DNA from: a virus
IMG/VR virus record: IMGVR_UViG_3300009161_000070
Location: 1 to 49,336 of that record
Direction: 5' to 3' (one strand)
Length of the DNA: 49,336 bases
Shown here one piece after another: positions 2 to 37,394 of this stretch. The translations under genes and the position numbers were made by a program. Every line of letters begins with the position of its first letter. Within the stretch, counting starts at the first letter, position 1. The notes under the pieces were generated by a model, which did no database searches, was not told where the DNA came from, and saw nothing but the letters and a program-made list of their open reading frames with translations.

Positions 2-172
2 TTTTATCCAGAAATTGGTGACATCGTATTCTTCAACGACCGTTATTATGAAATTAACTCGGTTATATCTGAGCAGCTACTGGGAGGTCAGAGTGACAAG
101 AACCACAGTATAATTTGCAACGCTCACTATACAAAAATAACTTCATTAAACATTCTAGAGAGAAACAACTAA
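2..172 (+). CDS. Neck protein, gp14-like, C-terminal fragment (5' end outside window)
   Basis: Frame 2 is open from the left edge to a TAA at 170-172 and gives 56 residues beginning FYPEIGDIVFFNDRYYEI and ending ILERNN. The pattern of a structural acidic strand (GDIVFFNDRYYEIN), a hydrophobic stretch and a short polar tail resembles the C-terminus of T4 gp14-type neck proteins, which close the head after packaging and join it to the tail. The next gene, 9 bases downstream, is gp15-like, matching the T4 order 14-15. Only the tail of the protein is visible, so the assignment rests mainly on gene order. It is too short to exclude another neck protein. Confidence 0.6.
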   Translation, partial: FYPEIGDIVFFNDRYYEINSVISEQLLGGQSDKNHSIICNAHYTKITSLNILERNN

Positions 173-181: not shown

Positions 182-1564
182 ATGGCATGGCGCGGAAATC
201 CAGTTAAACCAATAGCAAACAAACCTTCTAATCCAATTAACTTTGGACCTGAAATGTCTGGCTTGAAAAAACCAGACACGGTCGAAAGAGTTGGACCGGC
301 AGCAGTAAAGAGTCGTGCATTTAACATGCGAAGAGATACAGATAAGCAAAAAAACTTTTCTGTGACTTTGATTGATATAGATAGCACTATATTAACTTAT
401 CTTGATACTGTAATCAACCCAACCATTGTTGACGCTGGTCGTCAAGTTAAAGTTCCAATCAATTATGCTTCTCCAGAAAGATGGAAAGCCATACAAAAAG
501 ATGGATATCTAAGAGACAAAAACGGTAAAGTGCAATGTCCCGTAATTGCATTCAGAAGAAGTACAATGCAAAGAAACGATCAATTGCAAACACTTAATCG
601 TTATTTGCAATATCCAGCTGTAAAACAATTTTCAGAAAAAAATAAATACGACAAGTTTTCAATGCTAACTGGATTTAGCAAGACTAAGGAAATTTATTCT
701 GTAGCAATGCCTGACCATGTTATTATCAACTACGAATTTATTGTTTGGACAGAGCTGGTTGAACAAGGAAATGAAATAATAGAATCTGTAAATTTCTCAA
801 CCGAAGATTATTGGGGAGATAAAAACAGATATAAGTTTAGAACAAGTATCAGTGATTATAATTTTGAAACAGAAGTTGCTGCTGATAGTGACCGTGTTGT
901 AAAAAGTACTTTTAGTTTAATGGTATATGCATATCTATTACCGGATAAATTTGAGAATTATAAGTCTACAGTTGAAAAAGCATTTACTCCAAGAAAAATT
1001 ATATTTGATACCGAAAATATTATTGATATTCAAAACTTGGATGCAGACGGCTTAAAGAAAAAAGCCGAGGATATATTCGCAAAGAAAGCTGCTGGGTTTC
1101 CGACAATGGTTCAATATGCAAATCGCGCAACCGAAGCTTCATTCGCTGTCTTCGGTGCAAGTGCTTCATTTGCCGCCACCGCAAGTCACGTATATCTAGA
1201 CAGCGGTTCTTTAACTGTTGGCACAATGGGACTAACCGGTGGAGCGGGTGGACCGGCAACTGGATCGTTTGGTACAAACTTGATCACAGATGTAACGGGA
1301 TATCAAGCTGTGGATTCATTTGGAATAACCGCAGGAAATGCGGCGCTATGGCTTGTTTCTGTGAATGATGGGACCAATTTCAAAACGAACGAAGTTGCGG
1401 CGACTTGGGACGATACAGTCATCAATTTTTATGTAACTGAAGTTTCTACAATCGGCAATGTGCCGGTGGTCATAACTGCAAATAACGTCGGAGGAGTTGT
1501 AAGTCTAGTGGCCAATCCATTGAGTGGTACATGGACAGTTAAACTCATTCGAATGATTATATAA
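182..1564 (+). CDS. Tail-sheath stabiliser (gp15-like) fused to a C-terminal beta domain
   Basis: 460 residues. Residues of roughly 50-290 follow the layout of T4 gp15, the cap that ends the sheath and joins tail to neck: a strand then KVPINYASPERW (T4 has a VPITYAS motif), a middle INYEFIVWTELVEQ helix region, and the late VVKSTFSLMVYAYLLPD strand. T4 gp15 is about 270 residues. Here about 170 extra residues follow, starting at a KKAEDIFAKKAAGFPTM linker and a TASY-like stretch and ending in a beta domain with GNAALWLVSVNDGTNFKTNEV and a WTVKLIRMII terminus. That domain recurs in the next four genes. Start: first ATG, 9 bases after the gp14-like stop, with no Shine-Dalgarno. The extension could display adhesive domains at the neck; this is inference. 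Confidence 0.65.
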   Translation: MAWRGNPVKPIANKPSNPINFGPEMSGLKKPDTVERVGPAAVKSRAFNMRRDTDKQKNFSVTLIDIDSTILTYLDTVINPTIVDAGRQVKVPINYASPERWKAIQKDGYLRDKNGKVQCPVIAFRRSTMQRNDQLQTLNRYLQYPAVKQFSEKNKYDKFSMLTGFSKTKEIYSVAMPDHVIINYEFIVWTELVEQGNEIIESVNFSTEDYWGDKNRYKFRTSISDYNFETEVAADSDRVVKSTFSLMVYAYLLPDKFENYKSTVEKAFTPRKIIFDTENIIDIQNLDADGLKKKAEDIFAKKAAGFPTMVQYANRATEASFAVFGASASFAATASHVYLDSGSLTVGTMGLTGGAGGPATGSFGTNLITDVTGYQAVDSFGITAGNAALWLVSVNDGTNFKTNEVAATWDDTVINFYVTEVSTIGNVPVVITANNVGGVVSLVANPLSGTWTVKLIRMII

Positions 1565-1572
1565 TATATACA

Positions 1573-1580
1573 TATTTATA
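1573..1580 (+). promoter_or_regulatory. TATTTATA box 4 bases before a start codon
   Basis: An exact TATTTATA lies four bases before the ATG of the 194-residue gene. The same box with the same or nearly the same spacing precedes three other genes in this window (12993, 28082, 44093). If it acts as a -10-type element, the transcript would begin at or next to the AUG. Its activity is inferred from recurrence only. Confidence 0.35.
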
Positions 1581-1584
1581 CGCT

Positions 1585-2169
1585 ATGGCCACGTTTACAT
1601 CAAAAAATGCATATAATAAGTTCTCTGTGATGCAGGGGGGTAATGGATCAAAGGCCAGCGCCAATTCCGCAAGAAGAAAGGCGGAAGAAATATACAACAA
1701 GAAAACATCAGGTTTTCCTAGTCTTGTTCAATATGCAAACAGAGCCGACGAAGCTGCATATGCCGTTTTTGCTATAACCGCTTCGTATGCAGCGACTGCT
1801 AGTTTTTTATATACAACGGTTCCTGTAACAGTGGGTACAATGGATCTTACTGGCGGAATAACCAAAGCATCGCTAGGTACAAATTTGGCTACAACTGTGT
1901 ATTTTCAACAACCTATTGACGTTATAGACGTTAACACAGGAAATGCTGCTATGTGGCTAGTTTCTATAAATAATGGTACTAGTTATAAGACAAACGAAGT
2001 TGTTGCCAGCTGGAGTACTACTACAATAAATTATTATGTAACGGAAGTTTCTGAAATAGGAAGTGTACCCGTTACTTTATCTGCTACCATAGTTGGCGGA
2101 TTTGTAAATTTAGTCGCCACTCCTAGAAGTGGTGTTTGGACAATTAAACTAATGCACACGATTGTATGA
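1585..2169 (+). CDS. Beta-domain structural protein, paralogue of the gp15-like C-terminus
   Basis: 194 residues. From about residue 25 it repeats the C-terminal part of the preceding gene: RRKAEEIYNKKTSGFPSLVQYANR matches KKKAEDIFAKKAAGFPTMVQYANR there, followed by a short TASYAATAS stretch and the beta domain (GNAAMWLVSINNGTSYKTNEV, ending WTIKLMHTIV). It looks like a tandem duplication of the gp15-like tail without the gp15 body. It probably belongs to the virion, perhaps the neck or a fibre attachment site, but no function is known. The stop overlaps the next start (ATGA), so translation is likely coupled. Confidence 0.6.
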   Translation: MATFTSKNAYNKFSVMQGGNGSKASANSARRKAEEIYNKKTSGFPSLVQYANRADEAAYAVFAITASYAATASFLYTTVPVTVGTMDLTGGITKASLGTNLATTVYFQQPIDVIDVNTGNAAMWLVSINNGTSYKTNEVVASWSTTTINYYVTEVSEIGSVPVTLSATIVGGFVNLVATPRSGVWTIKLMHTIV

Positions 2170-2660
2170 ACATACCTCCCAATCCAAAGCCAGTAAATAA
2201 TACGGCAAACAAGAAAACACTGTTTGTAGATAAAGCAGATCATGTAGATTTTGTAGATACGGTAAGAAGCATTGAATTGGCCGCAACAGCGTCCCAATTT
2301 AAAACTGGCGGATCCATTTCGATCCCATCGTTAAATCTTATTGGTGGAGGAGTTACAGGGTCAATGAGCACCAATTTGTCTTCAAATGTTACGGCGTCTC
2401 AAAATATTGACATTATTCCTATAAATAATGGAAATTCAGTAAAATGGTTTGTATTTATAGAGGGCGGAACAAACTCAAGAGCAAATAAAATCGTGGCAAG
2501 CTGGAACAATACAACTGCAACTTATTATAGCAACCAATTTAACGAAATTGGTAGCGTACCTGTGAATTTTGATGTTTATGCATCCGGAAGTAATATTTAT
2601 CTAAAAGCGATACCTGCCACTGGTAGCTGGGTTATGAAACTTATAAGGATGATGGTATGA
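2166..2660 (+). CDS. Beta-domain structural protein, third copy
   Basis: 164 residues. The N-terminal part (NKKTLFVDKADHVDFVDTV) is unlike its neighbours, but the last 75 residues are the same beta domain: GNSVKWFVFIEGGTNSRANKIV, then a G-S-V-P-V strand, ending GSWVMKLIRMMV. A short SLNLIGGGVTGSMSTNLSS stretch corresponds to the DLTGGITKASLGTNL region of the gene before. It overlaps both neighbours by four bases (ATGA), forming a tight coupled cluster. Likely a small virion decoration or fibre-base protein; the function is unknown. Confidence 0.55.
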   Translation: MNIPPNPKPVNNTANKKTLFVDKADHVDFVDTVRSIELAATASQFKTGGSISIPSLNLIGGGVTGSMSTNLSSNVTASQNIDIIPINNGNSVKWFVFIEGGTNSRANKIVASWNNTTATYYSNQFNEIGSVPVNFDVYASGSNIYLKAIPATGSWVMKLIRMMV

Positions 2661-3103
2661 GTAATAACTATGGAATGAACAATCCGTTTATTGTACAAAA
2701 TGGCCTTATTGTTAACGCTGACGCGGTAATAACAGGTAGTATATCATCGTCGGCGGCAACTTTGAACAGATTGATTGTTCGAGACGGTACGACCGCATAT
2801 ATGGATGCCAAGTTGGCCAGTAGCGTGTCGTCTTATAGAGTTATTGATTATTTTACCGGTTCTATAGGAAATAGTGCCAAATGGACACTATCTATAAACG
2901 ACGGTACTAATTTTAAAACAAGTGAAGTAATGTGTATATGGAATCCGACAACGGCGGAATCATCATACGCGGAATATACTACAAACGCTTTAGGTACAGT
3001 TGCAGGATTCTTGTCCGTCAACATTTCGGGTGGAAACGTGAATTTGATCGCTAATCCACTCACAGGTAGTTGGACTATAAAGATTTTGCGATTTATTATT
3101 TAA
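2657..3103 (+). CDS. Beta-domain structural protein, fourth copy
   Basis: 148 residues. It begins MSNNYGMNNPFIVQNGLIVNADAV, a header shared in outline with the next two long fibre proteins (MSNELIIRNGLIVKGAG; MSNEFVARKGLISLKSS). It ends with the family beta domain: GNSAKWTLSINDGTNFKTSEV and GSWTIKILRFII. It is therefore a minimal header plus tip with almost no shaft, which links the short neck-side proteins to the long fibres. The ATG overlaps the preceding stop. The exact role is unknown. Confidence 0.55.
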   Translation: MSNNYGMNNPFIVQNGLIVNADAVITGSISSSAATLNRLIVRDGTTAYMDAKLASSVSSYRVIDYFTGSIGNSAKWTLSINDGTNFKTSEVMCIWNPTTAESSYAEYTTNALGTVAGFLSVNISGGNVNLIANPLTGSWTIKILRFII

Positions 3104-3172
3104 AAAAAGGTTTTTTATACAAGATAGATATATTTATTAACACAACCCATAACTTAGAAAACATAAAAAAAC

Positions 3173-4960
3173 ATGAGTAACGAACTTATCATCAGAAACG
3201 GATTGATTGTCAAGGGAGCTGGAAATATTTCTGGTGACCTTATTTTAACAGGAAGCGTGTATTCACCTTCATTGGCGTATCTAACTGCAAGCTATGCTAT
3301 TACCGCAAGTAATGCAGTGACTGCATCTTTTGCACTAAATTCGCCCGCTGCTACATTGGCAGCAACTGCATCTTATATTTCAACAGCAGTATTCAACAGC
3401 GCATCGCTTGGTTCGGAAACTTCCGCGTCGGTCTCCGCATTGCAAGTTGATTCTGGTTCGTTTTCTACTCGTGTCACCGATCTAAAAACAGATTCCGGTT
3501 CGTTCTCTACACGTGTTACCGATCTAAAGACCGACTCTGGTTCTTTCTCGACTCGTGTCACCGATCTAAAAACAGATTCCGGTTCGTTCTCTACACGTGT
3601 TACCGATCTAAAGACCGACTCTGGCTCGTTCTCTACCAGAGTTACAACACTAGAAGATGCGTCCGGTTCGTTCTCAACTCGTACAACAACTCTTGAAGAC
3701 GCTTCTGCTTCGTTCTCAACACGTGTCACTGGCTTGAAGACTGACTCTGGTTCTTTCTCGACTCGTGTTACAGATCTAAAAACTGATTCTGGTTCGTTCT
3801 CGACGAGAATTACGGATGATTCAAGTTCATTCTCGACACGTGTCACGGACCTAAAGACCGACTCTGGATCATTCTCCACACGTATCACGAATCTAAAAAC
3901 AGATTCCGGTTCATTCTCCACACGTATTACCGACTTGAAGACCGATTCCGGTTCTTTCTCTACTCGTACCACGACACTCGAAGATGCGTCCGCGTCCTTC
4001 TCGACAAGAATCACAAACGATTCTAGCTCGTTCTCAACACGTGTTACCGATTTGAAGACTGACTCGGGATCATTCTCAACACGTGTTACCGATTTGAAGA
4101 CTGACTCGGGATCATTCTCTACTCGTGCAACAACTCTAGAACAAGCATCTGCTTCATTCTCAACAAGAGTGACAGACCTAAAGACTGATTCTGGCTCATT
4201 CTCAACTCGCACGACGACTCTAGAACAAGCATCTGCTTCATTCTCAACTCGCGTTACAGATCTAAAAACAGATTCCGGTTCATTCTCAACAAGAGTGACA
4301 GATCTAAAGACTGACTCCGGCTCGTTCTCGACGCGCATCACGAATATCATCACCGATGCTGCAACCTCACTCGCAGGTTCTGCTTCATACGCTTCAACCG
4401 CCGGTGCCTTGGTAACAACTTCAAATTATACTGTAACTCAATTGACAGCATCTGTCATCAAGGTTACGAACTTGCACGTTACAACCGTAACCAGCTCGAT
4501 TGTATATTCGTCCGGTAGTAACAGATTCGGTCAATTTATTTCCGACAGTCATCAATTCACGGGCAGTGTATCTGTGACCGGATCAATCTATGTTGACCAC
4601 TCTGTCACAGCACACGAGTTGATTATCAACACCGGTGGTAGCGTTCCCGCATCGATTATTACACTTGAAACAACAAGTATTTCTTCAGAAACCGTCGTTG
4701 ATTCGTTCGCTGACGGTGATGGATATGCTGCAAAATGGTTTGTAAATGTTCGTAACGGAACAAACCACAGAACAAGTGAAGTTGTCGCAGCATGGGAAAA
4801 TACTGGAGATATCGTGGCATTCACAGAAACATCGACACTTGATACCGGTGACACAAATCCACTTGTATTGAGAGTTGATATAAGTTCCAACAAAGTAAGA
4901 TTGGTCGCCACGCCATCTACTGGATCATGGGCAATTCGCGCAACAAGACTACTGATGTAA
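3173..4960 (+). CDS. Tail-fibre-like protein with SFSTR coiled-coil repeats and beta tip
   Basis: 595 residues in three parts. Residues 1-91 are a header (NELIIRNGLIVKGAG) with a few TASY units. Residues 92-388 hold 22 units ending SFSTR, mostly 14 residues (consensus VTDLKTDSGSFSTR), with two shortened to 11. Both lengths suit coiled-coil phases, so a trimeric rod is likely. The rest has a VTQLTASVIKVTNLHV strand region and FTGSVSVTGS unit shared with the long fibres, and ends with the beta domain (GYAAKWFVNVRNGTNHRTSEV, GSWAIRATRLLM) found in the four genes upstream. Start: first ATG after an A-rich leader, 69 bases after the previous stop. Probably a side or neck fibre; receptor binding is inferred from the architecture. 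Confidence 0.65.
   Translation: MSNELIIRNGLIVKGAGNISGDLILTGSVYSPSLAYLTASYAITASNAVTASFALNSPAATLAATASYISTAVFNSASLGSETSASVSALQVDSGSFSTRVTDLKTDSGSFSTRVTDLKTDSGSFSTRVTDLKTDSGSFSTRVTDLKTDSGSFSTRVTTLEDASGSFSTRTTTLEDASASFSTRVTGLKTDSGSFSTRVTDLKTDSGSFSTRITDDSSSFSTRVTDLKTDSGSFSTRITNLKTDSGSFSTRITDLKTDSGSFSTRTTTLEDASASFSTRITNDSSSFSTRVTDLKTDSGSFSTRVTDLKTDSGSFSTRATTLEQASASFSTRVTDLKTDSGSFSTRTTTLEQASASFSTRVTDLKTDSGSFSTRVTDLKTDSGSFSTRITNIITDAATSLAGSASYASTAGALVTTSNYTVTQLTASVIKVTNLHVTTVTSSIVYSSGSNRFGQFISDSHQFTGSVSVTGSIYVDHSVTAHELIINTGGSVPASIITLETTSISSETVVDSFADGDGYAAKWFVNVRNGTNHRTSEVVAAWENTGDIVAFTETSTLDTGDTNPLVLRVDISSNKVRLVATPSTGSWAIRATRLLM
3446..4336 (+). repeat. In-frame 42-bp repeat array (22 SFSTR units)
   Basis: Twenty-two tandem units encode VTDLKTDSGSFSTR-type peptides. 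Nineteen are 42 bp. Two (ITDDSSSFSTR, ITNDSSSFSTR) are 33 bp, and the first is a 27-bp partial unit. Variant units carry TTLEDAS or TTLEQAS in place of TDLKTDS. Synonymous differences between units show that the array has drifted while the peptide was kept. Confidence 0.9.
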
Positions 4961-5121: not shown

Positions 5122-8100
5122 ATGTCGAACGAATTTGTAGCACGCAAGGGATTAATATCATTAAAAAGTTCGAGTTTCAATGAAACTCTTTTTGTAAGCG
5201 GAAGCATATCCAGTTTACAAACCGCCGATCTAACGTCAAGTTGGGCGGCAAACTCAGTAACGGCATCTTATGCATTGACTGCGTCATATTTAGCCGGATT
5301 TATACAATCGGCATCTTATTCGGCAACAGCTTCGTATATAGACTATATAGATGTTAAGAATATAACATCAACTTCAACGTTTGCTGGTACGGCTTCTTAT
5401 TCTTCGCAAGCTCTTACAGCTTCAAACGTATCTTATAGTAATGTATCTGGAATAGACTCAACCAGTAATTTTGCTGGAACCTCCAGTTATTCTTCATATT
5501 CGGCAACTGCGTCGTTGGCAATCAATGCAACCACCGCGTCATATGTCAAAAATGCTCAGTCGGCATCTTATGTATTACAAGCAGTAAGTTCATCATACTC
5601 ACGTTTTTCTCAAACCGCTTCTTATATAGAAAATGCACAAACTGCATCTTATGTAGATTTGTCCCAAACTGCATCATATGTTACGTTGGCTCAAAGTTCA
5701 TCTAGGTCTGTATATGCTGAAACAGCTTCGTATGTTGAGAATTCTCAGACCGCGTCGTATGTAACACTCGCTCAAAGTTCTTCAGTTTCGGCGTATGCTC
5801 AAACCGCGTCGTATGTAACATTATCACAAACGGCTTCGTATGTGGTTCAAGCACAAAGTGCATCTTATGCAAGTAACTCGGTTAGTTCATCATTTTCAAG
5901 TTTATCTCAGACCGCATCGTATGTAAGATTGGCACAAAGTTCCTCGGTCTCTGAATATGCCAAAACCGCGTCATACGTTGTATTGTCGCAAACAGCATCG
6001 TATATTGCCGTGGCTCAAACGGCAAGTTATGTTTTACAAGCGGTCAGTGCTTCGTATGCAACTAGTTCTTCGTATGCATTGTCATCTAGCTATACAAGAA
6101 CTGCATCATTATCTCAAACCGCGTCGTATGTAAGCACTTTAAACCAGTCGGTATCAATTTCTGGTTCTTTGGTTATAACCGGTTCCGTTTCTTATGTTGG
6201 AAACACCGGCGACACATTAATGGTCGCGGCCGGTGACGTTCTTGAAGTAACAGGCTCTTTGTTAGTAACCGGTTCTATTATTTTGACCGGAAGTATGAAT
6301 GTCAGCGGAGGAATTACATCCTCGATATTTGGCACGGCATCATATGCTTCTCGTGGCATGTCGGCGTCGTATGCAGAATCGTCTTCATATACACTCAGCG
6401 CGTCATATGCTCAGACCGCATCTTACATTTTAAATTCTCCAAGCGCATCATATGCGCTTACCGCATCCTATGTACTAAACGCAAAAACCGCGTCTTATGT
6501 ATCATGGGCAAACGTGGATGAATCAACCACAGACACATTTATCGGTACTGCTAGTTACGCCACGAATGCAGCACTTGCTGCTACGGCAACCGGCGTGTCA
6601 TATTCAGGTGTAACCGGCATTGATTCGACAAGCCAATTTGCGGGTACATCATCATATGCATCAAATGCCGAGAACGCCAACACTGCAAATAGTGTTTCAT
6701 ACTCAGGCGTAACCAACATTGATTCAACAAGTCAATTTGCAGGAACTTCGTCGTATGCATCTACAGCTGGTGCTTTAGTTTCTGGTATAAATATCAACGT
6801 TACTCAGTTAACGGCATCTGCAATTCAAGTAACAAACTTGAATGTAATAACGATTACAAGTTCGATTGATTACGCATCGGGCAGTAATATATTTGGAACA
6901 AAATCAACCGATACACACAGATTTACTGGAAGTGTTTTAATTTCTGGGTCATTTAATTTAACAGGAACCGGAACCGCTAATCTGACTGGTTCTTTATTCG
7001 GAACATCGTCTTGGGCTTCAAATCTAGTGTCCGGTACCAAAATAACTTCGTCCGGTATATTATCCACCGGAAGCAATATTTTTGGTTCTGTAACAAACGA
7101 CACCCACAGATTCACTGGTAGTATCTATTTGTCCGGATCCATATTCGTCAATGGAAATGAAGTTGTCAGTGGAGCCGAGACCGCAACAATAACTGGTTCA
7201 CTGTTTGGTACAGCTTCTTGGGCACAAAATCTAGTTGCAGGAACTGCAATTACTGCATCTGCGGTATATGGTTCTGGAAGTAACGTATTCGGTATAAACA
7301 TCGAAGATACTCACAGATTCACTGGTAGTATCTATTTGTCCGGATCCATATTCATAAATGGAAACGAGTTTGTAAGTGGAACGGAAAACGCCAGTATTAC
7401 TGGTTCTCTATATGGAACTTCCTCGTGGGCAAGAAATTTAGTTGCTGGAACAAAGATAACATCGTCCGGTATACTGTCAACGGGAAGTAACACTTTTGGA
7501 TCTGTGCAGTCCGATATGCACAAATTTACAGGTAGTATCTACCTGACAGGGTCGGTTTATATCAATGGAAATGAATTTGTCAGTGGTGGAGAAACAGCAA
7601 ATATTACCGGTTCATTGTTCGGAACATCTTCTTGGACAAGAAACTTAGTAGCAGGTACAAAGATAACATCTTCTGGAATACTCTCAACTGGAAGTAATAC
7701 ATTCGGCTCTGTGCAAACAGATGTGCACAAGTTCACTGGAAGCATATATTTAACTGGCTCGGTTTACATCAACGGAAATGAGTTTGTTAGCGGTGGAGAA
7801 ACCGCTAATATCACCGGTTCACTTTTTGGAACATCTTCGTGGGCAAGAAACTTGGTATCTGGAACAAAGGTCACAGCATCCGGTATCTATGGATCTGGAA
7901 GCAATGTGTTTGGTACTGATTTAGTAGATACACATAGATTTACAGGAAGCATTTATCTATCCGGATCGATATATGTAAATGGCAACGAAATAATTAGTGG
8001 TGCGGAAAATGCCAGTATAACCGGTTCACTATTCGGAACGGCCTCATATGCAACTATAGCAGAAGCTCTTGTTTCTGGTATTAATATAAATGTTAATGTA

Positions 8101-9954
8101 ATAACGGCGTCAGTCATAAGTGCATCATATATAACCGCCAGTAACTTGGTGGTCACGACGATGGTGGCAGAAGTTACTACCATGTCGGTTGATTATCTAA
8201 CCGTACTGTCTGTTATCAGAGGCACGGCTTCATACGCAGAAACCGCATCATATGGGATGCAGACGGTAAGCTCGTCTTATTCGAGATTCTCGGACACCGC
8301 CTCATATAATTTGTTGTCTCAGACGGCATCATACGTTTCAATTTCTCAAACTGCTTCGTATACAACTTTAGCACAAACCGCAAGCTATGCTGCACTTTCA
8401 CAAACGGCCTCTTATATAGATTATGTTAACGTAAAAAATATATCGAGTACGAGTACATTTGCAGGAACATCAAGTTATTCAAGTAAGTCACTGTCAGCTT
8501 CTTATTCTGAAATTGCAACAAGCGCTTCATATGCAGCAGCATCACAGACCGCTTCGTATGTAACATTATCCCAAACGGCCTCTTATGCGGGATTGTCTCA
8601 AACTGCTAGTTATGTTACACTATCGCAAACTGCTTCGTATGTAATAACAGCAAACACAGCGTCTTATGTTGATTACGTAAACGTTAAAAACATAACTTCC
8701 ACTTCGACGTTTGCGGGAACAGCAAGTTTCGCATCTAAGTCGATATCGGCATCATACTCAGAAAATTCTAACACGGCGTCATACGTAAATCTGGCACAAA
8801 CTGCTTCTTATGTGGTGTCAGCAAAGTCCGCTTCGTATGTATCATGGGCAAACGTAGATGAATCAACGACCGATACATTTGTGGGTACCGCTTCTTATGC
8901 CACCATGGCATTGACCGCGTCGTATGTTGCCGGAACTGCTGCAACATCTTCTTGGGCATACAATGCAATAACATCTTCTTATATAGCATGGGCAAACGTA
9001 GATGAGTCCACAACAGACGTATTCGCTGGCACCGCTTCTTACGCAACACTGTCAAAAACATCTTCTTATATTGATTACACGAACGTAAAAAATATATCTA
9101 CAACTTCGACATTTGCTGGAACTGCAAGTTATGCCACCCAAGCATTGACTGCTTCGTATGTTGCAGGAATGGCCAGTACGGCATCTTGGTCTGTAAATTC
9201 ACAAACCGCCTCTTACGTAGATTATAATAACGTCAAGAATATAACCAATGCTTCTACATTCGCAGGTACCGCTTCTTATGTGGCATCCGCATCATATGCC
9301 GATTTGTCTCAGACTGCTTCTTATATAACACTTGCACAATCGGCTTCGTATGTTTCTATCGCGCAGACTGCTTCATACGTTTCACTTTCTCAGACAGCAA
9401 GTTATGTATTACAATCCGTCAGCGCGTCGTTCTCGACAACTGCTTCTTATGCGACTGTTGCCTCTGCTATAGTTTCCACTGCAAATGTAAACATAAATCA
9501 GCTTACTGCGTCCGCAATTCAAGTAACAAATCTAAACGTTGTTACTATAACTAGCTCGATTGATTATGCATCAGGAAGTAACATCTTTGGTACAAAATCC
9601 ACAGACACTCAACGCTTTACTGGAAGTGTAAGCATAACTGGGTCACTTTCTATAAATGGTCCTATTACTATGGCCGGTGTTATCTCCGCCGTTGTTATAA
9701 AGACAACCAATTATACTGTTACAGCACAAGACAATTTGATTGTTTGCAACCACGCAACAACGCCATTCACCGTAACACTTCTTGATGCGTCCACGGCTAC
9801 TGGTCGTGAATTCACTCTCAAGAATAAAGGCGCGGCAGAAGTAACAATCGACGCAACGGGTCTTGGTCTTTTAGACGGAGATAATACTTATACATTGACA
9901 CAATATCAATCTATAAAAGTAATAAGCGACGGCACAACTTGGAACGTAATATAA
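5122..9954 (+). CDS. Giant TASY-repeat tail fibre protein
   Basis: 1610 residues. The header (MSNEFVARKGLISLKSSSF) matches those of the two genes before. Most of the protein is short repeats with a nine-residue period such as QTASYVTLS, interleaved with longer units of the type DYVNVKNITSTSTFAGTASY. Residues 639-983 are five 69-residue units with FTGSIYLSGSIYVNG. The last 85 residues (NYTVTAQDNLIVCNH to SDGTTWNVI) are a beta domain of the kind that ends many phage tail fibres. No enzymatic motif is seen. It is probably a long trimeric shaft with a small C-terminal tip. It is followed after one base by another fibre gene, and the 160-base leader contains no clear Shine-Dalgarno at a usable distance. 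Confidence 0.75.
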   Translation: MSNEFVARKGLISLKSSSFNETLFVSGSISSLQTADLTSSWAANSVTASYALTASYLAGFIQSASYSATASYIDYIDVKNITSTSTFAGTASYSSQALTASNVSYSNVSGIDSTSNFAGTSSYSSYSATASLAINATTASYVKNAQSASYVLQAVSSSYSRFSQTASYIENAQTASYVDLSQTASYVTLAQSSSRSVYAETASYVENSQTASYVTLAQSSSVSAYAQTASYVTLSQTASYVVQAQSASYASNSVSSSFSSLSQTASYVRLAQSSSVSEYAKTASYVVLSQTASYIAVAQTASYVLQAVSASYATSSSYALSSSYTRTASLSQTASYVSTLNQSVSISGSLVITGSVSYVGNTGDTLMVAAGDVLEVTGSLLVTGSIILTGSMNVSGGITSSIFGTASYASRGMSASYAESSSYTLSASYAQTASYILNSPSASYALTASYVLNAKTASYVSWANVDESTTDTFIGTASYATNAALAATATGVSYSGVTGIDSTSQFAGTSSYASNAENANTANSVSYSGVTNIDSTSQFAGTSSYASTAGALVSGININVTQLTASAIQVTNLNVITITSSIDYASGSNIFGTKSTDTHRFTGSVLISGSFNLTGTGTANLTGSLFGTSSWASNLVSGTKITSSGILSTGSNIFGSVTNDTHRFTGSIYLSGSIFVNGNEVVSGAETATITGSLFGTASWAQNLVAGTAITASAVYGSGSNVFGINIEDTHRFTGSIYLSGSIFINGNEFVSGTENASITGSLYGTSSWARNLVAGTKITSSGILSTGSNTFGSVQSDMHKFTGSIYLTGSVYINGNEFVSGGETANITGSLFGTSSWTRNLVAGTKITSSGILSTGSNTFGSVQTDVHKFTGSIYLTGSVYINGNEFVSGGETANITGSLFGTSSWARNLVSGTKVTASGIYGSGSNVFGTDLVDTHRFTGSIYLSGSIYVNGNEIISGAENASITGSLFGTASYATIAEALVSGININVNVITASVISASYITASNLVVTTMVAEVTTMSVDYLTVLSVIRGTASYAETASYGMQTVSSSYSRFSDTASYNLLSQTASYVSISQTASYTTLAQTASYAALSQTASYIDYVNVKNISSTSTFAGTSSYSSKSLSASYSEIATSASYAAASQTASYVTLSQTASYAGLSQTASYVTLSQTASYVITANTASYVDYVNVKNITSTSTFAGTASFASKSISASYSENSNTASYVNLAQTASYVVSAKSASYVSWANVDESTTDTFVGTASYATMALTASYVAGTAATSSWAYNAITSSYIAWANVDESTTDVFAGTASYATLSKTSSYIDYTNVKNISTTSTFAGTASYATQALTASYVAGMASTASWSVNSQTASYVDYNNVKNITNASTFAGTASYVASASYADLSQTASYITLAQSASYVSIAQTASYVSLSQTASYVLQSVSASFSTTASYATVASAIVSTANVNINQLTASAIQVTNLNVVTITSSIDYASGSNIFGTKSTDTQRFTGSVSITGSLSINGPITMAGVISAVVIKTTNYTVTAQDNLIVCNHATTPFTVTLLDASTATGREFTLKNKGAAEVTIDATGLGLLDGDNTYTLTQYQSIKVISDGTTWNVI
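7036..8070 (+). repeat. Five 207-bp in-frame repeats (69-residue FTGSIYLSGS units)
   Basis: Units start at 7036, 7243, 7450, 7657 and 7864. Each encodes the order TKITSSGILSTGSN, a D-x-H-(R/K)-FTGSIY strand, a NGNEFVSG turn and ITGSLFGTSSW. The third and fourth units are the most alike. The same unit is repeated in the 1611-residue fibre gene downstream. Confidence 0.85.
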
Positions 9955-20702: not shown

Positions 20703-23700
20703 ATGCCATTTATATCTGCAAAAGCAATCGGATCTGTTTCTACACTTGGTGGGCTTGGGTATTCACCACAAAAGCCACCTAATGTATTTATTGCAACAGG
20801 TGGAACAGTTGCTTATGACGGAGATTATGTGATACACACATTCACAAGCAGTGGAACTTTTACTGTATTATCTGGGTCCGGTGATATAACTACCATGATG
20901 GTTGGCGGTGGTGGTGGTGGTGGATATAATTGCGGCGGTGGTGGCGGTGGTGGCGGCTACATATATCAAAACACGACTGTAACAACTGGATCTTATTCTG
21001 TCGTCATTGGATCCGGCGGAGCAGGTGGAACGATTTCAACAAATGCCGCAAATGGTAATGATAGTACTTTCAACCAATTGACTGCAATTGGCGGTGGTGG
21101 CGGTGGTGGATATACAAATTCCACGGGTAGTATTGGTGGGTCCGGTGGTGGAGCAAGTGGAACTGGATTTGGTCCGTATACACCCGGTTCTGGTAGTGGC
21201 ACATTAGGATATCGTGGCGGATTTGCTACTTTAGGAGGAACTCCTCCGAGTTTGACAAATACTCCAACGCCAACAAACACATTGACTCAAACGGTGACTA
21301 GAACGCCAACGTTAACGCCTTCAAAGACACCAACAAACACTCCGACGAGAACTTCTACATTAACACCAACGCCGACGTCAACTAATACACCCACATTGAC
21401 TCGGACGTTAACTCCGACTACAAGTGTAACGTCAACTCCAACTACAACAGCGACACCAACGAGAACATCTACCCCTACACTAACCAGTACTCCAACGTTA
21501 ACTCCAACAAGAACTCCGACTACAACACGCACTCCAACACTTACATCAACTCCAACACTTACGTCTACACCAACGTTAACTCCGACAAAAACACCGACAA
21601 CAACTAGAACTCCCACGAGAACTGTTACTGCTACTCCATATGCAACGAACACATCGACTCCTACAATTTCTGCTACTTCAACGTTAACGCCAACGTTAAC
21701 GCCAACATTAACTTCCACTCCAACATTGACCGCGACAACAACGTTAACTCCAACATTGACCGCGACAACAACGTTGACAAGTACACCGACACCAACTCCT
21801 ACACTAACAAAAACATTAACTGCAACTCCAACACCGACACCAACGCTAACATCAACTCCTACGCTGACCGCGACGACCACAGTCACCAGTACATTAACTC
21901 CGAGTGTAGATACCCCGTATGGAGGAGTAGTATTCGCAGCAAGTGGAACTTCATATAATTGGACGGTACCGGCAAATATTTATTTTATATCCGTGGTTGC
22001 TGTTGGTGCGGGCGGCGGGTTAATTTCAACCACGGCTGGATCAGGGGGCGCGGGGGGTGGCTCATTGGTATATGGAAATAATATAGCAGTTACTCCCGGT
22101 GAAGTGTTAACCATAACCGCTGGTGTGGCAGTACAAAATGGTGGCGGTAGCAGCAGTCTCGTGGTTCAAGGGGGGGTGACTATTCTGTCGGCAGGTGGCG
22201 GAAGTCGTAGCAACGCATTCGGTACTAGCGGAGGAACTTGGGGTGGAACAAAAGCAACCGACGGCGGAAACGGTGGGGCTGGTGGTGGTGGTGGTGCGTA
22301 CTTCTCGGGACTTGGTGGAACACTTCTTACCACTTCGGGCGGCAGTGGCGGCGCGGGCGGTTATGGTGGCTCCGGAGGCGCAGGGACGAGTGTGGGCGCA
22401 ACTACTGTTACCAACGGAACGTCTGGAGCTGCTGGTGGTGGTGGTGGTGGGAGTGGCGGCGGCGCATTCTCTCCATTCGCCGGTGGCGGGGTTGGAATAT
22501 ATGGACAAGGTTCGAGCGGTGTATACTCCAACGGCAGCGCGGGCAGCGCAGGTAGCGGTGGGAGCGGAGTAACATACGGCGGAGGTCGTGGCAATCCGAG
22601 CGGCGTAGCTGGCGATGGTGTTGTTCGCATCATTTGGGGAATAGGCAGAGCGTTTCCATCGACAAACGTAAGTGCTTTGGAAACTCCAACCCCAACTCCA
22701 ACCCCAACTCCCACACCAACTCCTACGCGCACGTCTACACCTACGTTGACAGTAACATCTACATATAGCCAATTCAGATTTTATATCGGTGCGGGTGGCG
22801 GTGGTGCAGGAAACAATGGTATCGACGCATCATACTCGGCGGCAGGAACCGGTGGCGCGGGTATACTAAATACAATCACCGGTACACCAGCTTATTATGC
22901 AGGTGGTGGTGGTGGTGGAGCATGGCCATCAAAATCCGGAGGTCTGGGTGGCACCGGAGGCGGTGGAGCAGGTAATGTTCTTGGTGTTGGTGGAGCCGGT
23001 ACATCTGGAACAGCTAATACCGGCGGTGGCGGTGGAGCAAGCAGTAGTACCGGTGGAATCACCGCCGGAGCGGCGGGCAACGGCGGAAGTGGTATAGTCG
23101 TTATTAAATACAGAGCTTCATCCGAATTGCTTGGAAATGATCCGTATTTTAATAAAAATATCGGTCTAATTCACTCCGACAATACAAGCCAAAATGCCGG
23201 AAATATCGTTGATGTGTCTGGTAGAAATGAAGTCACAATAAATGACAGTATGTATCAAGGCGCAGAAAGTCCACACGTCAACAATGGTTGGGCGTATTTC
23301 TGGACAGGAAGTAGTTCTACGGTAGCGCAATACACGTCATCGAATGCTTTTATTATATTGTCCAACGGTAGTTCATGGGCGTTTGAAACTTGGTTTTTTA
23401 GAACAAGCACGGCATTAAGTCAATCGTTGTTGGACACCAATCTTTTTAACGTTAGATTAAATGTTCCAACCGATGGAGATATTTCAGTAAATATGACGGG
23501 TAGCGTCGGACAAATATTTAGTGGATCTGCCAGCAAAGTTCAAAAACTTAAAACGTGGCATCATTTGGCTATTACCCACCAAGCGCCAAGTATGTCGATT
23601 TATGTCGATGGACAGCCAGTAGTATCATTTATTACCGGTTCTACATCATACACAAGTTCGGGAGCAAATTTATTAACGGTTGGTAGAACATGGGGAGCAC

Positions 23701-26700
23701 TCACTAATTATTTTAATGGATACTTGTCAAATTATAGAATTAGCACAACCGCTTCGTTATACACTGCCAGTTTTGCTCCACCCAGAGACACTTTGAGTAG
23801 AACAAGCAGCACGCGATTGTTGATTATGCATGACGGCACAAATTTACACGATCAAAACTATTCGGCGTCGTCGGTAATTTCGACGACATTTGATTCGACG
23901 AAATTAAAGCTAAAAACAAATCCATTTTTTGGAGCACTGACAGGTTCATATAATTCTACAATAAACGGATCTAGTATATATTCCGAAACACAGTCTGCGT
24001 ATATTACCACAGACAAATCGTTCTTGACGTTTGATCCAACCGGCGCATTTTCATTAAAATTTTGGTATAATACTAACAAGCTTGAACAAAACACGTTTAT
24101 AAGTGGATCTACTACAAGCTCTTTATATTTGGCATATAATTATTCAAACGTGGACGATTGGATGTATGTTAGTCAAGCAACAACTTCGGCTGGAACAACA
24201 GATTATATTGCTTACACAGGTACTACATATGTAACGGTTGGACTTAGTAATACGTCTTCGTCATTTTCAACGGATGGTGTAAATTGGTCATCACGAGCAA
24301 TCAATGTAACGTTAGATGGGAATTTTGGAGGAATTTTTTATACGGGCAGCGTGCTGCTGGCATATCTATCCTCTGCAACCACGGCAGTGCCGGAAAAAGC
24401 AATATATTCAACAAACAACGGCTTAACATGGGCATCGACGACTGGATTGAATGTTGGAACTGGTAACTTATTCATATACGCGATGGCGTTTGGTAATGGT
24501 ACTTATGTTGCCCTCGGCCACGACAGCGGTGTAGTTTTACCTGCGTTTTTTAGTAGTGCAAACGGAACTGTGTGGACGAGAAGAACCACTCCAGCGGTGT
24601 TTACAGCTAGTATGGGTAGTCCGGGTGTTGCATATGGAAACGGAACTTTTGTTGGTGTTGGTGCTGGTACTGATTACATTTTAAGATCTACTGTCGGTAC
24701 AAGCTGGACCTCAAGTATAAAAATTCCGTCAGATTCACCGGCTAAAAATTTGAGTGCCATTGCATATGGAAACGGAACTTTTGTTGCAGTGGGAAATAGC
24801 AGTACTATATTAAGATGTACCGACAGTGGACTAACTTGGAATACAATCCCCGTTACTCCAAGTAATCTATCTCTGTCCTTTGTCGTGTATACAGGAGAAT
24901 TTTTCGCAGCGGCGGCCGGACGGCACCTAATTACTTCTCCGGACGGGTTGACTTGGACATATAAATTATTGCCAATAAGTATTAATAATGATTTTAAATA
25001 TTTAAATAATAAATTTTATATAAACTCCTCTGCGCCGACAGCTCCGGCAGCTCCTATATATGTACTAACATCGTCGTTCAAATATTGTTTAGATTTTAAA
25101 GCACCATCGTATAGCGGATCTATTGTATTACGAAGCACAGCCAGTATGTTAAGCACAAACTTCAACAATACGATAGTTCCAAATACATGGAAACATATAG
25201 GAGTATCAAAAACGACAGGAAGTCGTTATAGTATATACATCGACGGCACAAATCATGCCGAATTCACAGATTCAAGTTCATTGACAGGCCAAACAAAAAT
25301 TGGACCATTTTGTGGATATCTTTCAGATTTCACAGTGGTTAGTGGCTCATACGACGGAAAAATTCCAACCGGACCAGAAACTGCGTCAACGGATACAGTA
25401 ATACTATTGTCCGGTACAAATCCACCCGCAGTTGACAAAACTGGATTAAATACAGTCATTACAAAAAATATAGATATTTCGAATAATGTCAGAAAAGTTG
25501 GCGCAGGAAGTATGTTCTTCAATGGAAGTTCTTCATATGCATATTCTCCAAATTGGCCAACACATTTTAATGCCAGTATAGATCGCGGGATGAACATGAC
25601 GATAGAGTCTTGGATAAATCCATCATCACTTGGAACGTATCGTCCTATATACAGCACAAATACACTACTAGATAATGGGTTTTCATTTGGCGTAAATACA
25701 AATGGAAAATTAACTGTAAAAAATTACAGAAATTCTGCAAGTTATACTGCAACAAGTTCGACTGTGATTCCAACGGGATCATGGTCAAATGTTGCATTGA
25801 CTATATACTCTGGTTCTAAAATGAGTCTTTGGGTAAATGGCACATCCGTCGGAAGTCCGACCGGCTCGTTCATTTCTAGCAGTGAGCTTGGTTATCAAGG
25901 TACCATTGGCAGTAGTCTGGAAAATAAGACCGCTTGGTCTATTCAAATTTCGCCAACACCTGGTTCACAATCGTGGTCTGATGTTGCATACGGAAATGGA
26001 ACTTTTGTGGCTGTAGCAAACTCTCCGAGTGGCTCGCTAAATGCAGTGATGACATCAACCGATGGCATTACATGGACTCCACGGGCACAAGGTGCTGGCA
26101 GAGGTCAACCATGGAGTAGTCTGGCGTATGGCAGTGGGTTATTTGTGGCTGTCGCGAACGCGCGCTGGTCGTTTACTACCGATCCACTATATATGACATC
26201 CCCCGATGGAATAAATTGGACGGCAAGGTCCACGCCAACTTCTTCTTTAAACTCCTTGACGTATGGAAATGGGCTGTTTGTCGGTGGGACAACTGGCAAT
26301 CTATTCGGCTTTTTAACATCGCCAGATGGTATAAACTGGACTCCGAGGGCAACCGGTGTTCGAGCGTATTTTAATGTAGTTTATGGAAACGGGTTATTTG
26401 TTGCAGTGTCGGACAGTACCTCCATTACCATTTACAGTAATAGAGTAATGACATCGACGGATGGAATCACGTGGAATCTGCAAATGGTCCCAGAATTTAA
26501 TAGTTGGAAATCAGTAGCTTACGGAAACGGTTTATATGTCGCAGTTGCAAATAACGGACTCAATAGAATAATTACATCCCCCGATGGTATAAATTGGACA
26601 CCGCGCAAAGTGGGATTGTCCGCGTATAATAAAATAATTTATGGGAATGGATTGTTCGTGGTATTCGCCGGTGGCACATTACCGACTTTAACTTCAAGTG

Positions 26701-27845
26701 ATGGTATAAATTGGTTGGAACGATCTGCTATATCGCCGGTGGCAAACGGTATCACATCTGCCACCTATGTAAGTGGGTCTTTCGTGGTAGTCGGAGCTAA
26801 TACGGCCGGTGTATCAACAAACCCAAGCGATCTTGGAACATCCTCGTATTTCCACGGATATATGGACGAATTTCGTTATACCGATGATTTTTGTAGATAT
26901 ATAGGCTCGTATACTCCATACAAGCGTCAATTCCAAAACCGCTTGACATCTACGCTGACGCCAACGGCCACGAGCGCGCCAATCGATAAAAAAGCTATAT
27001 TTGGATATGGCAACGGTCCTGTCTCGATGACAAACCTTGTGTCCAACACTGGCGTTGTATCAACAGATACGACTGGCGTTGGCACTGCACGCACCTACCT
27101 CGCCGCTGCTGGCTACGGCACGGACAAGGCGATTTTTGGATATGGTACGACGGCGGGGTACAATCCAAATTATTCCATAACCAATCTGGTGAGTAATACA
27201 GGTGTTGTAGCAACTGATACAACGGGTGTTGGCACTGAACGCTGGTTTCTTGCCGCTGCTGGTTACGGCACCGACAAGGCGATCTTCGGATATGGCTACT
27301 CCTCCACCTCAAATGTTTCAATGACAAACCTTGTGTCCAACACAGGCGTTGTATCAACAGATACGACTGGGGTAGGCACTGCACGCAACGGCCCCGCCGC
27401 TGCTGGCTACGGTACGGGCAAGGCAATTTTTGGCTATGGCGTTGGCGACTGGGGGTATGTCTCGCTGATAAACTTTGTCTCCAACACGGGCGTTGTATCA
27501 ACGGACACGACTGGTGTGGGGTCTGCACGCTACGGCCTCGCTGCTGCTGGCTACGGTACGGGCAAGGCAATTTTTGGATATGGCTCCGACAACAGTGGCG
27601 ATTTATCGATTACAAACCTTGTGTCCAACACTGGCGTTATATCAACAGATACGACTGGCGTTGGCTCCATACGCTACAGCCCTGCTGCCGCCAGCTACGG
27701 TACAGACAAGGCAATTTTTGGGTATGGCTACACCAGCCCGTTGGTCTCAACAGTAAACCTCGTATCAAACACTGGCGTTGTAGCAACAGACACGTCCGTC
27801 TCTGGCACTGCCCGCTGGGGCCTAGCCGCAGCGAGCTACGCTTAA
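20703..27845 (+). CDS. 2380-residue multidomain adhesin (Gly-rich, LamG, propeller-like repeats)
   Basis: Order of parts: residues 50-180 Gly-rich domain; 185-401 Thr/Pro linker; 410-646 second Gly-rich domain; 660-683 short Thr/Pro linker; 693-803 third Gly-rich domain; about 809-1050 a LamG-like domain (WAFETWFFR, WHHLAITH, SIYVDGQPV, GYLSNYRI). A second LamG-like domain (FSLKFWYN ... WKHIGVSK ... YSIYIDG) is split by propeller-like repeats at about 1150-1450, and a third (MTIESWIN ... WSNVALTI ... HGYMDEFRY) is split by another set at about 1745-2045, with units like YGNGLFVAVA and TSPDGINWT. Residues 2097-2380 are six KAIFGYG repeats. There is no signal peptide or catalytic motif. Gly-rich and lectin-like parts suit a phage receptor-binding adhesin; a fused assembly artefact is unlikely because the frame is continuous. 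Confidence 0.75.
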   Translation: MPFISAKAIGSVSTLGGLGYSPQKPPNVFIATGGTVAYDGDYVIHTFTSSGTFTVLSGSGDITTMMVGGGGGGGYNCGGGGGGGGYIYQNTTVTTGSYSVVIGSGGAGGTISTNAANGNDSTFNQLTAIGGGGGGGYTNSTGSIGGSGGGASGTGFGPYTPGSGSGTLGYRGGFATLGGTPPSLTNTPTPTNTLTQTVTRTPTLTPSKTPTNTPTRTSTLTPTPTSTNTPTLTRTLTPTTSVTSTPTTTATPTRTSTPTLTSTPTLTPTRTPTTTRTPTLTSTPTLTSTPTLTPTKTPTTTRTPTRTVTATPYATNTSTPTISATSTLTPTLTPTLTSTPTLTATTTLTPTLTATTTLTSTPTPTPTLTKTLTATPTPTPTLTSTPTLTATTTVTSTLTPSVDTPYGGVVFAASGTSYNWTVPANIYFISVVAVGAGGGLISTTAGSGGAGGGSLVYGNNIAVTPGEVLTITAGVAVQNGGGSSSLVVQGGVTILSAGGGSRSNAFGTSGGTWGGTKATDGGNGGAGGGGGAYFSGLGGTLLTTSGGSGGAGGYGGSGGAGTSVGATTVTNGTSGAAGGGGGGSGGGAFSPFAGGGVGIYGQGSSGVYSNGSAGSAGSGGSGVTYGGGRGNPSGVAGDGVVRIIWGIGRAFPSTNVSALETPTPTPTPTPTPTPTRTSTPTLTVTSTYSQFRFYIGAGGGGAGNNGIDASYSAAGTGGAGILNTITGTPAYYAGGGGGGAWPSKSGGLGGTGGGGAGNVLGVGGAGTSGTANTGGGGGASSSTGGITAGAAGNGGSGIVVIKYRASSELLGNDPYFNKNIGLIHSDNTSQNAGNIVDVSGRNEVTINDSMYQGAESPHVNNGWAYFWTGSSSTVAQYTSSNAFIILSNGSSWAFETWFFRTSTALSQSLLDTNLFNVRLNVPTDGDISVNMTGSVGQIFSGSASKVQKLKTWHHLAITHQAPSMSIYVDGQPVVSFITGSTSYTSSGANLLTVGRTWGALTNYFNGYLSNYRISTTASLYTASFAPPRDTLSRTSSTRLLIMHDGTNLHDQNYSASSVISTTFDSTKLKLKTNPFFGALTGSYNSTINGSSIYSETQSAYITTDKSFLTFDPTGAFSLKFWYNTNKLEQNTFISGSTTSSLYLAYNYSNVDDWMYVSQATTSAGTTDYIAYTGTTYVTVGLSNTSSSFSTDGVNWSSRAINVTLDGNFGGIFYTGSVLLAYLSSATTAVPEKAIYSTNNGLTWASTTGLNVGTGNLFIYAMAFGNGTYVALGHDSGVVLPAFFSSANGTVWTRRTTPAVFTASMGSPGVAYGNGTFVGVGAGTDYILRSTVGTSWTSSIKIPSDSPAKNLSAIAYGNGTFVAVGNSSTILRCTDSGLTWNTIPVTPSNLSLSFVVYTGEFFAAAAGRHLITSPDGLTWTYKLLPISINNDFKYLNNKFYINSSAPTAPAAPIYVLTSSFKYCLDFKAPSYSGSIVLRSTASMLSTNFNNTIVPNTWKHIGVSKTTGSRYSIYIDGTNHAEFTDSSSLTGQTKIGPFCGYLSDFTVVSGSYDGKIPTGPETASTDTVILLSGTNPPAVDKTGLNTVITKNIDISNNVRKVGAGSMFFNGSSSYAYSPNWPTHFNASIDRGMNMTIESWINPSSLGTYRPIYSTNTLLDNGFSFGVNTNGKLTVKNYRNSASYTATSSTVIPTGSWSNVALTIYSGSKMSLWVNGTSVGSPTGSFISSSELGYQGTIGSSLENKTAWSIQISPTPGSQSWSDVAYGNGTFVAVANSPSGSLNAVMTSTDGITWTPRAQGAGRGQPWSSLAYGSGLFVAVANARWSFTTDPLYMTSPDGINWTARSTPTSSLNSLTYGNGLFVGGTTGNLFGFLTSPDGINWTPRATGVRAYFNVVYGNGLFVAVSDSTSITIYSNRVMTSTDGITWNLQMVPEFNSWKSVAYGNGLYVAVANNGLNRIITSPDGINWTPRKVGLSAYNKIIYGNGLFVVFAGGTLPTLTSSDGINWLERSAISPVANGITSATYVSGSFVVVGANTAGVSTNPSDLGTSSYFHGYMDEFRYTDDFCRYIGSYTPYKRQFQNRLTSTLTPTATSAPIDKKAIFGYGNGPVSMTNLVSNTGVVSTDTTGVGTARTYLAAAGYGTDKAIFGYGTTAGYNPNYSITNLVSNTGVVATDTTGVGTERWFLAAAGYGTDKAIFGYGYSSTSNVSMTNLVSNTGVVSTDTTGVGTARNGPAAAGYGTGKAIFGYGVGDWGYVSLINFVSNTGVVSTDTTGVGSARYGLAAAGYGTGKAIFGYGSDNSGDLSITNLVSNTGVISTDTTGVGSIRYSPAAASYGTDKAIFGYGYTSPLVSTVNLVSNTGVVATDTSVSGTARWGLAAASYA
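21255..21905 (+). repeat. Thr/Pro-rich low-complexity linker array
   Basis: In-frame degenerate repeats encoding TPTLTPT, TSTPTLT and TATPT-type units, separating two Gly-rich domains. A shorter copy lies at about 22681-22750. The opposite strand stays open across the array, giving a spurious valine/glycine-rich ORF. Confidence 0.85.
26991..27842 (+). repeat. Six KAIFGYG repeats (about 140 bp each)
   Basis: Six units of 45-49 residues with the order KAIFGYG, variable 5-10 residues, S-x-x-N-L/F-VSNTGVVSTDTTGVG, T/S-A-R and a closing LAAAGYGTD. The even spacing suggests a six-bladed propeller or a Kelch/RCC1-like ring. Base use is visibly richer in G and C than in the preceding adhesin sequence. 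Confidence 0.8.
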
Positions 27846-31927: not shown

Positions 31928-31970
31928 GATAATACTTTTTTTAATAACCTAACCAAATATATATACATCT

Positions 31971-33017: not shown

Positions 33018-33023
33018 TTTTTT

Positions 33024-34103: not shown

Positions 34104-34119
34104 AAAGAAATAAAATATT

Positions 34120-35208: not shown

Positions 35209-35232
35209 TATTTATTAATACTTTAAAATTTT

Positions 35233-37386: not shown

Positions 37387-37394
37387 TAAATCAT

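Follow-up and report, generated by a model that had tools for sequence, protein, structure and literature searches.

The window analysed here is a stretch of 49,336 nucleotides of viral DNA (IMG/VR record IMGVR_UViG_3300009161_000070, positions 1 to 49,336). Near its start five consecutive open reading frames were confirmed on the plus strand, at 182-1564 (460 aa), 1585-2169 (194 aa), 2166-2660 (164 aa), 2657-3103 (148 aa) and 3173-4960 (595 aa), with the starts of genes 3 and 4 overlapping the stops of genes 2 and 3 respectively. The five products (proteins 1 to 5) have in common a homologous C-terminal domain of about 120 residues, copies of which lie at 1202-1561, 1816-2166, 2310-2657, 2744-3100 and 4595-4957. 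Homology was tested by tblastn with protein 1 as the query against the window's own record, and all four other proteins were matched in their C-termini. The top match was protein 2 (E 1.7e-55, 57% identity, residues 287-459 of protein 1) and the remaining three gave E values of 2.9e-23, 3.0e-21 and 4.5e-14; the other ORFs of the window are without the domain at E<1e-3. Residues G385, W390, G397-T398, W409, L442, A444, P446, G449 and W451 (protein 1 numbering) are invariant in 5/5 copies. The tblastn matches and this five-way alignment bear out the proposal of an earlier note that one domain ends five consecutive genes. The ‘minimal protein’ of which that note also spoke can be recognised in gene 4 (148 aa) but not in gene 2, the product of which is alike protein 1 over 173 residues including the linker. 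Searched as whole proteins against PHROG and Pfam, the five gave chance or low-complexity matches only.

The window opens in the 3' end of a neck gene (2-172, plus strand, cut by the window start) with the in-frame C-terminus FYPEIGDIVFFNDRYYEIN...LERNN, which matches a 157-aa protein found between the gp13-like protein and gp15 in the relatives L014, L030 and L001. The gene order in relatives is gp23 (E 7e-74), gp13-like (phrog_211, E 1e-10), gp14-like and gp15; the gp14-like gene, there and at 2-172, is so called by position only, and its protein has no match in PHROG. The downstream end of the neck-to-sheath interval is marked by the tail sheath gene gp18 (40256-43243, plus strand; phrog_23 tail sheath, 3e-75). 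At 995 aa this sheath protein is unusually large.

Protein 1 is a gp15-type tail terminator with a C-terminal beta-sandwich domain. Its body comprises residues 1-285 (182-1036), with the terminator fold at 59-258, and is followed by a linker, KKAEDIFAKKAAGFPTMVQYANRATEASFAVFGASASFAATAS (1040-1201), that is also present in protein 2 and contains ASF/ATAS motifs resembling the downstream fibre shafts. Taken alone, the window's protein 1 reached no match of E 1 with the gp15 family profiles PF16724 and phrog_227, whereas PF16724 was matched by 6 of its 16 relatives (best E 7.1e-8) and phrog_227 (tail sheath stabilizer) by 8 of the 16 (best E 1e-4). An hhalign comparison of A3 with T4 gp15 gave E 2e-5. 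Residues 61-252 of the protein 1 model superpose on T4 gp15 (4hud, Z 12.1; 4huh, Z 12.2), which was the top match in both Foldseek and VIA, with many other terminators also matched; residues 1-58 and the loop at 134-177 are without a confident model. The C-terminal segment of the body is conserved, with K266, R271 and K272 invariant. Sequence, gene position and fold thus agree with the gp15-like body claimed in the earlier note, and the similarity to tail terminators on which that claim turned is present. T4 gp15 (PF16724; PDB 4hud, 4huh, 3j2m) resembles protein 1 in body fold and in its position after gp13 and gp14, and at the head-proximal end of the tail it is hexameric, as presumably is protein 1. 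However, T4 gp15 ends at 272 residues whereas protein 1 continues with the linker and the 120-residue beta-sandwich.

About 39 IMG/VR contigs carry intact fusions of the gp15 body to the domain, which amount to 27 distinct proteins. In each of the 27 a single open frame encodes both parts, and a frameshift or assembly artefact as the source of the fusion was rejected. The fusions, which belong to uncultured T4-like phages, form one clade (support 100/98) within which no loss was seen, and the tree indicates that the fusion arose once; it is kept in 17/17 diverged lineages with conserved core positions. More distant gp15 relatives have other C-termini or none, and genome contigs yielded two distant gp15 bodies only, both in bacterial MAGs (one Flavobacteriaceae) and both without the domain. 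It had been suggested that an extra domain on a terminator is unusual; this was overstated, as additions are found on other gp15s of the family, on the gp15 of S-SM2 and on the terminator of phage 812. In phage 812 (PMC12886913) the terminator likewise has an added beta-sandwich and the neck is decorated by separate proteins, which are not reported to share the terminator sandwich. That sandwich binds sheath proteins, and there is no evidence of its identity with the domain in the window. By analogy with it, the domain of protein 1 might be a sheath lock, packed against the uppermost ring of the sheath so as to reinforce the joint between neck and tail. The size of the window's sheath protein and the persistence of the fusion throughout its clade are consistent with such a role, but the same domain is also borne by fibres that have no sheath role and by the four proteins encoded alongside, the long and variable linker that precedes it has no confident structure, unlike a packed lock, and sheaths are also capped by gp15s with quite different C-termini. 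A sheath lock is considered unlikely.

In an AF2 model of the whole of protein 1 the C-terminal domain had a pLDDT near 45, so it was modelled separately; residues 341-460 alone gave a pLDDT of 93.7. Among solved structures this model is best matched by T4 gp9 in its C-terminal domain (1qex, residues 165-281; Z 12.2, 2.8 A, 107 residues), and further matches were obtained with the Klebsiella phage KP1 baseplate chain 9f4a_LA (Z 9.8) and with the C-terminal domains of the Acinetobacter phage tailspikes Fri1 gp49 (Z 10.3) and vB_ApiP_P1 (Z 9.8). At the sequence level the domain aligns weakly but in register with the gp9 C-terminus (hhalign E 0.0014), and the C-terminal part of phrog_967, the profile of the gp9 ‘tail fiber protein connector’, was matched in three relatives (E 4e-4 to 0.025). 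Comparison with the gp9 C-terminal family PF23618 gave a best E of 0.12, from 1 of 49 members. The domain is accordingly described as gp9-C-like and not as a member of PF23618. T4 gp9 is a baseplate trimer with N-terminal domains of its own, whereas the domain described here sits on a neck terminator and four neighbours; protein 1 has no gp9 N-terminal domains (no PF07880), its N-terminal part being gp15. A sequence search of the PDB with the domain profile returned a glucanase module alone (E 0.38, judged spurious), and a wider profile returned nothing useful from the same database.

The domain is one of a large, previously known family, members of which cap fibre and baseplate proteins in cyanophages and in uncultured phages, and profile comparison of the domain (A4) with cyanophage fibre C-termini (A5) gave 98.7% and E 3e-16 over 84 columns by hhalign. 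Cyanophage members of the family include S-SM2 SSM2_107, the S-TIM5 tail fiber and S-SSM7 SSSM7_233; all are fibres or baseplate proteins and none is fused to gp15. The product name of SSSM7_233, ‘baseplate wedge tail fiber protein connector’, was rejected as evidence for gp9, as the protein has the domain and no gp9 Pfam match. The S-SM2 fibre was among the top BFVD structure matches, and its gene lies in the neck gene cluster, directly following gp13-14-15-16.

The earlier note had regarded the domain as a fibre tip. This stands in so far as the domain ends phage fibre proteins elsewhere, but among solved folds the nearest is that of the gp9 C-terminal domain in T4, a socket that the long tail fibres join coaxially (PMC3004832). 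Because of this fold, docking of fibres appears at least as likely a function as that of a tip, although in most carriers the domain forms the distal end of the fibre and not a socket, which counts against docking. The distal position, together with the tailspike matches already described, would also suit a module exposed for binding or decoration, for instance of sugar-binding type, that helps the virion to adhere to surfaces and holds no fibre, and trimeric carbohydrate-binding modules (CBMs) are known on the neck-passage structures of lactococcal 936 phages (PMC6669499). Yet the domain matched no sugar-binding family, its nearest solved fold is a connector and in A-1(L) the CBM at the distal end of the neck fibre failed to bind the host (PMC10966104). 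We regard a binding module as doubtful, if still a serious candidate.

Proteins 2 to 5 are, on phylogenetic grounds, old paralogues, three of which (3, 4 and 5) keep orthologues across phages: L001, L002, L003 and L094 for protein 3 (clade 99/98), L001, L002, L004, L008 and L093 for protein 4 (98/95) and L004, L008 and L093 for protein 5 (100/99). Viral contigs scanned with the domain of protein 5 and with protein 2 gave no relatives. Protein 2 consists of a piece of gp15 body (residues 3-18), the linker and the domain. Its N-terminus matches the gp15 loop at 148-168 with a score reached by 0 of 2000 shuffles, and the gene looks like a copy of the gp15 fusion that has lost most of the body. 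This retained fragment would fit an origin in which modules were shuffled within a locus rich in fibres, fusion and paralogues arose incidentally and the domain does little on gp15. Modular exchange is common here: the different small motif in which other gp15s of the family end is found again in L047, in the gene that follows. Such an origin is nevertheless quite improbable given the retention of the fusion in all 17 diverged lineages with conserved core positions and the separate orthologous lines maintained by genes 3, 4 and 5.

Proteins 4 and 5 begin with related motifs, FIVQNGLIV and LIIRNGLIV respectively, and protein 5 continues with a shaft of S-x-S-F-S-T-R repeats. The first long TASY-repeat fibre (5122-9954, plus strand) has an N-terminus of the same type, EFVARKGLIS, and a different C-terminus. 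A gene with the N-terminus (F/L)(I/V)(V/A)-x-N-G-L, a form of the motif relaxed after a stricter one had found 23/39, follows the gp15 fusions in 39/39 cases and other gp15s in 0/36; it begins 0 of 998 background ORFs. Since the contrast of 39/39 with 0/36 is confined to a single branch of the tree, it represents one event and not 39.

That the domain is displayed at the neck follows most naturally from a body of gp15 type and from the place of the domain at the end of phage fibre proteins elsewhere. We infer this display from the known position of gp15; docking, its stoichiometry and any role in host contact are inferences too. The explanation that we tentatively prefer, rating it a little short of an even chance, is that the gp9-C-like domain of gp15 is displayed at the neck, where it holds or caps fibres encoded by neighbouring genes. 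Besides the folds of body and domain, the N-G-L gene that regularly follows the fusions and the place of the S-SM2 fibre gene in its neck cluster speak for this explanation. Protein 1 would be a hexameric terminator that locks the sheath end and meets the head-closure ring, and the flexible linker followed by a compact beta-sandwich would place six copies of the domain outside the tail-head junction as neck-level sockets or caps for the fibrous proteins of adjoining genes. Fibres with the N-G-L N-terminus may dock on the domain in the same coaxial manner as the long tail fibre of T4 on the gp9 C-terminal domain, and proteins 2 to 5, with the domain on shorter or longer stalks, may be adapter or decoration units arising from gene duplication. 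As gp15 is hexameric and T4 gp9 trimeric, an arrangement as two trimers or as six monomers has to be supposed, which counts against docking.

The fusion is most likely a variant of known neck decoration, of which a literature search found no earlier report; the search also gave no paper on neck fibres fused to terminators or on an immuto virion proteome. T4 likewise has neck fibres beside gp15, the whiskers and collar of fibritin (wac), the gene for which lies next to 13-14-15. Fibritin, however, is a separate coiled-coil trimer on gp13 and not a fusion, and no match to it was found when the proteins were scanned against Pfam and PHROGs. A fibritin loop touches gp15 in T4 (PMC3004832), but the whiskers bind gp13 (PMC12270204), which counts against docking on gp15. 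The bead-chain neck fibres gp82-gp81-gp80 of A-1(L) (PMC10966104) are likewise made of small co-encoded proteins and anchored at the neck, although their anchor is the pentadecameric gp5 and not the terminator; the domain HMM found nothing in the A-1(L) record, neck fibre genes included.

In a more elaborate form of the docking explanation, which we think improbable, the terminator would itself be the neck-fibre anchor, with a gp9-type socket on gp15 and proteins 4 and 5 chained head to tail up to the final long fibre. An N-terminal N-G-L plug and a C-terminal socket domain on each unit could then give bead-chain neck fibres of variable make-up, and capture of the domain would have shifted the point of fibre attachment from baseplate to neck. 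Little is understood about neck appendages, and a terminator joined covalently to a fibre socket would be a direct means of fixing fibres at the neck. Should docking be borne out, fibre assembly could be predicted for many uncultured T4-like phages from the succession of plug and socket domains. Five genes left without a confident name by PHROG and Pfam profiles gain names and roles from the analysis, and a similar small beta-sandwich appears to be in use at the baseplate (gp9), at fibre tips and at the neck.

The five genes at 182-1564, 1585-2169, 2166-2660, 2657-3103 and 3173-4960, all on the plus strand, are genuine, and the encoded proteins (proteins 1-5) end in a common domain, as the earlier note had claimed; it spans approximately 120 residues. 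In tblastn searches of the window's own record protein 1 matched proteins 2-5 with E values of 1.7e-55, 2.9e-23, 3.0e-21 and 4.5e-14, and alignment of the five gave 17 invariant columns, nearly all within or adjoining the domain. No further open reading frame of the window carried the domain at E < 1e-3. Genes 2-3 and 3-4 overlap by 4 bases, start on stop, an arrangement consistent with co-translation.

The body of protein 1 had been read as a tail terminator (gp15), an identification upheld by several lines of evidence. The window copy by itself is too diverged for a Pfam match, but 6 of 16 relatives matched PF16724 (T4 gp15; best E 7.1e-8) and 8 of the 16 matched phrog_227 (tail sheath stabilizer). 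T4 gp15 ranked first in a PDB search with the body profile (E 0.04), gave an E value of 2e-5 in a profile-sequence comparison and was the first PDB match of the protein 1 model (Foldseek 3.3e-6; VIA Z 12.1-12.2), residues 61-252 of which superpose on 4hud. In relatives, gp15 is preceded by genes for the gp23 major head protein, a gp13-like adaptor (phrog_211) and, at the gp14 position, a 157-residue protein, in that order; the window starts inside the gene for the 157-residue protein. Whereas the sheath gene comes only a few kilobases after gp15 in cyanophage S-SM2 and Microcystis phage Mel-JY01, 38 kb of mostly fibre-like genes separate the two in the window. The sheath protein (40256-43243; 995 residues) matches sheath profiles only over approximately its last third (residues 649-992), and has a large extra N-terminal part outside that match.

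The fold and family of the domain are established. Profile comparison linked the domain with the cap found at the C-terminus of fibre proteins from cyanophages and others (98.7%, E 3e-16), and the S-SM2 version as query found relatives encoded in 317 IMG/VR stretches; named carriers are annotated as tail fiber or baseplate wedge proteins. Modelled alone with 49 relatives (pLDDT 93.7), the domain has nine strands and no notable helix. Its best solved match by VIA-align was the C-terminal domain of T4 gp9 (1qex 165-281; Z 12.2, 2.8 A, 107 residues), followed by the C-terminus of the Acinetobacter phage Fri1 tailspike (Z 10.3), which was top by Foldseek E-value, and by the vB_ApiP_P1 tailspike and Klebsiella phage KP1 chain 9f4a_LA (Z 9.8 each); further tail fibres and tailspikes excepted, the remaining rows were at approximately Z 5 and below. 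Matches to the C-terminal end of phrog_967 (E 4e-4) and, by hhalign, to T4 gp9 (E 0.0014) were weak but in register, and comparison with PF23618 (E 0.12) did not place the domain in that family.

Body and domain occur in one frame in 27 distinct proteins from approximately 39 contigs. In the body tree these form a single clade (support 100/98), every member of which has the domain, showing that the fusion arose once and has been conserved. Outside the clade, gp15 ends in a GE-x-GW-x-AYD motif (384-388- and 462-residue forms), in another domain (Flavobacterium phage immuto, 463 residues) or with little C-terminal addition (Mel-JY01, 333 residues); S-SM2 gp15 has 333 residues against 272 in T4. 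A gp15 relative on the related contig L047 (L047:8001-9349) ends in a 'YGEDGWMAYDTNYHYIYVNNRWLR' motif that is repeated in the next gene (73 residues), a parallel to the window pattern with a different module. The C-terminus of gp15 is thus a site of module addition in several phage lines. On another contig (L042:8061-9122) gp15 is split over three frames, as are the domain genes, possibly through sequencing frameshifts.

Genes 3, 4 and 5 each group with their own orthologues from other phages in the tree of domains (support 99/98, 98/95 and 100/99), and their order is preserved in phages that have them. Genes 1 and 2 are placed together in an unresolved region of that tree. Residues 3-18 of protein 2 match residues 148-168 of the gp15 body (window score 50; 0 of 2000 shuffles as high); since it retains this short piece, protein 2 is best read, from sequence, as a duplicate of the gp15 fusion stripped of most of the terminator body.

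All 39 loci that have the gp15 fusion and sequence beyond it contain, within 4.5 kb, a gene whose product starts with (F/L)(I/V)(V/A)-x-N-G-(L/V). This start was absent from 36 loci with domain-less gp15 and from 998 background open reading frames. A stricter form of the motif, found in 23 of the 39, was relaxed once the missed genes had been read and seen to differ slightly. As the fusion arose once, the linkage counts as a conserved feature of a single clade, not as 39 separate events. The same type of N-terminus is present in proteins 4 and 5.

Tail terminators are hexamers between neck and sheath (PMC12886913), a fibritin loop contacts gp15 in T4, and the T4 long tail fibres join the gp9 C-terminal domain coaxially (PMC3004832). 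In the most likely reading the domain, placed after a variable linker, would be displayed on the outside of the neck, where it would act as a fibre socket or cap, and proteins 2-5 would be extra units. The neck attachment or decoration system suggested in the earlier note stands in part: terminator identity is secured, whereas neck display and a socket or cap role are proposals. The hexameric terminator would have to be reconciled in symmetry with the trimeric state of gp9. The main alternatives are that the domain is an exposed binding module, that it locks the sheath as the phage 812 terminator does (PMC12886913), or that the fusion reflects module shuffling without function. Protein 1 would be a variant of known neck decoration; both component families were already known, and no description of their combination was found in the literature searched.

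Between the fibre genes and the sheath gene lie eight consecutive paralogous genes (30845-39745; approximately 347-363 residues, MSLPxLEWRKLPVR...; 39-51% identity to the first), three of which were tested and gave no PHROG match. A 2380-residue protein (20703-27845) combines low-complexity repeats of the TPTPTNTPT type with numerous copies of a 'AAAGYGTDKAIFGYG...NLVSNTGVV' repeat; on the related contigs L014 and L022, genes that lie upstream of gp15 have a comparable repeat. Endonuclease-like genes were seen at 43295-44101 (homing endonuclease family, phrog_3339, 1.7e-8) and, judged by eye only, at 48078-49334 on the minus strand, and a putative 5'-3' deoxyribonucleotidase gene at 44106-44708 (phrog_2643, 2.5e-19).
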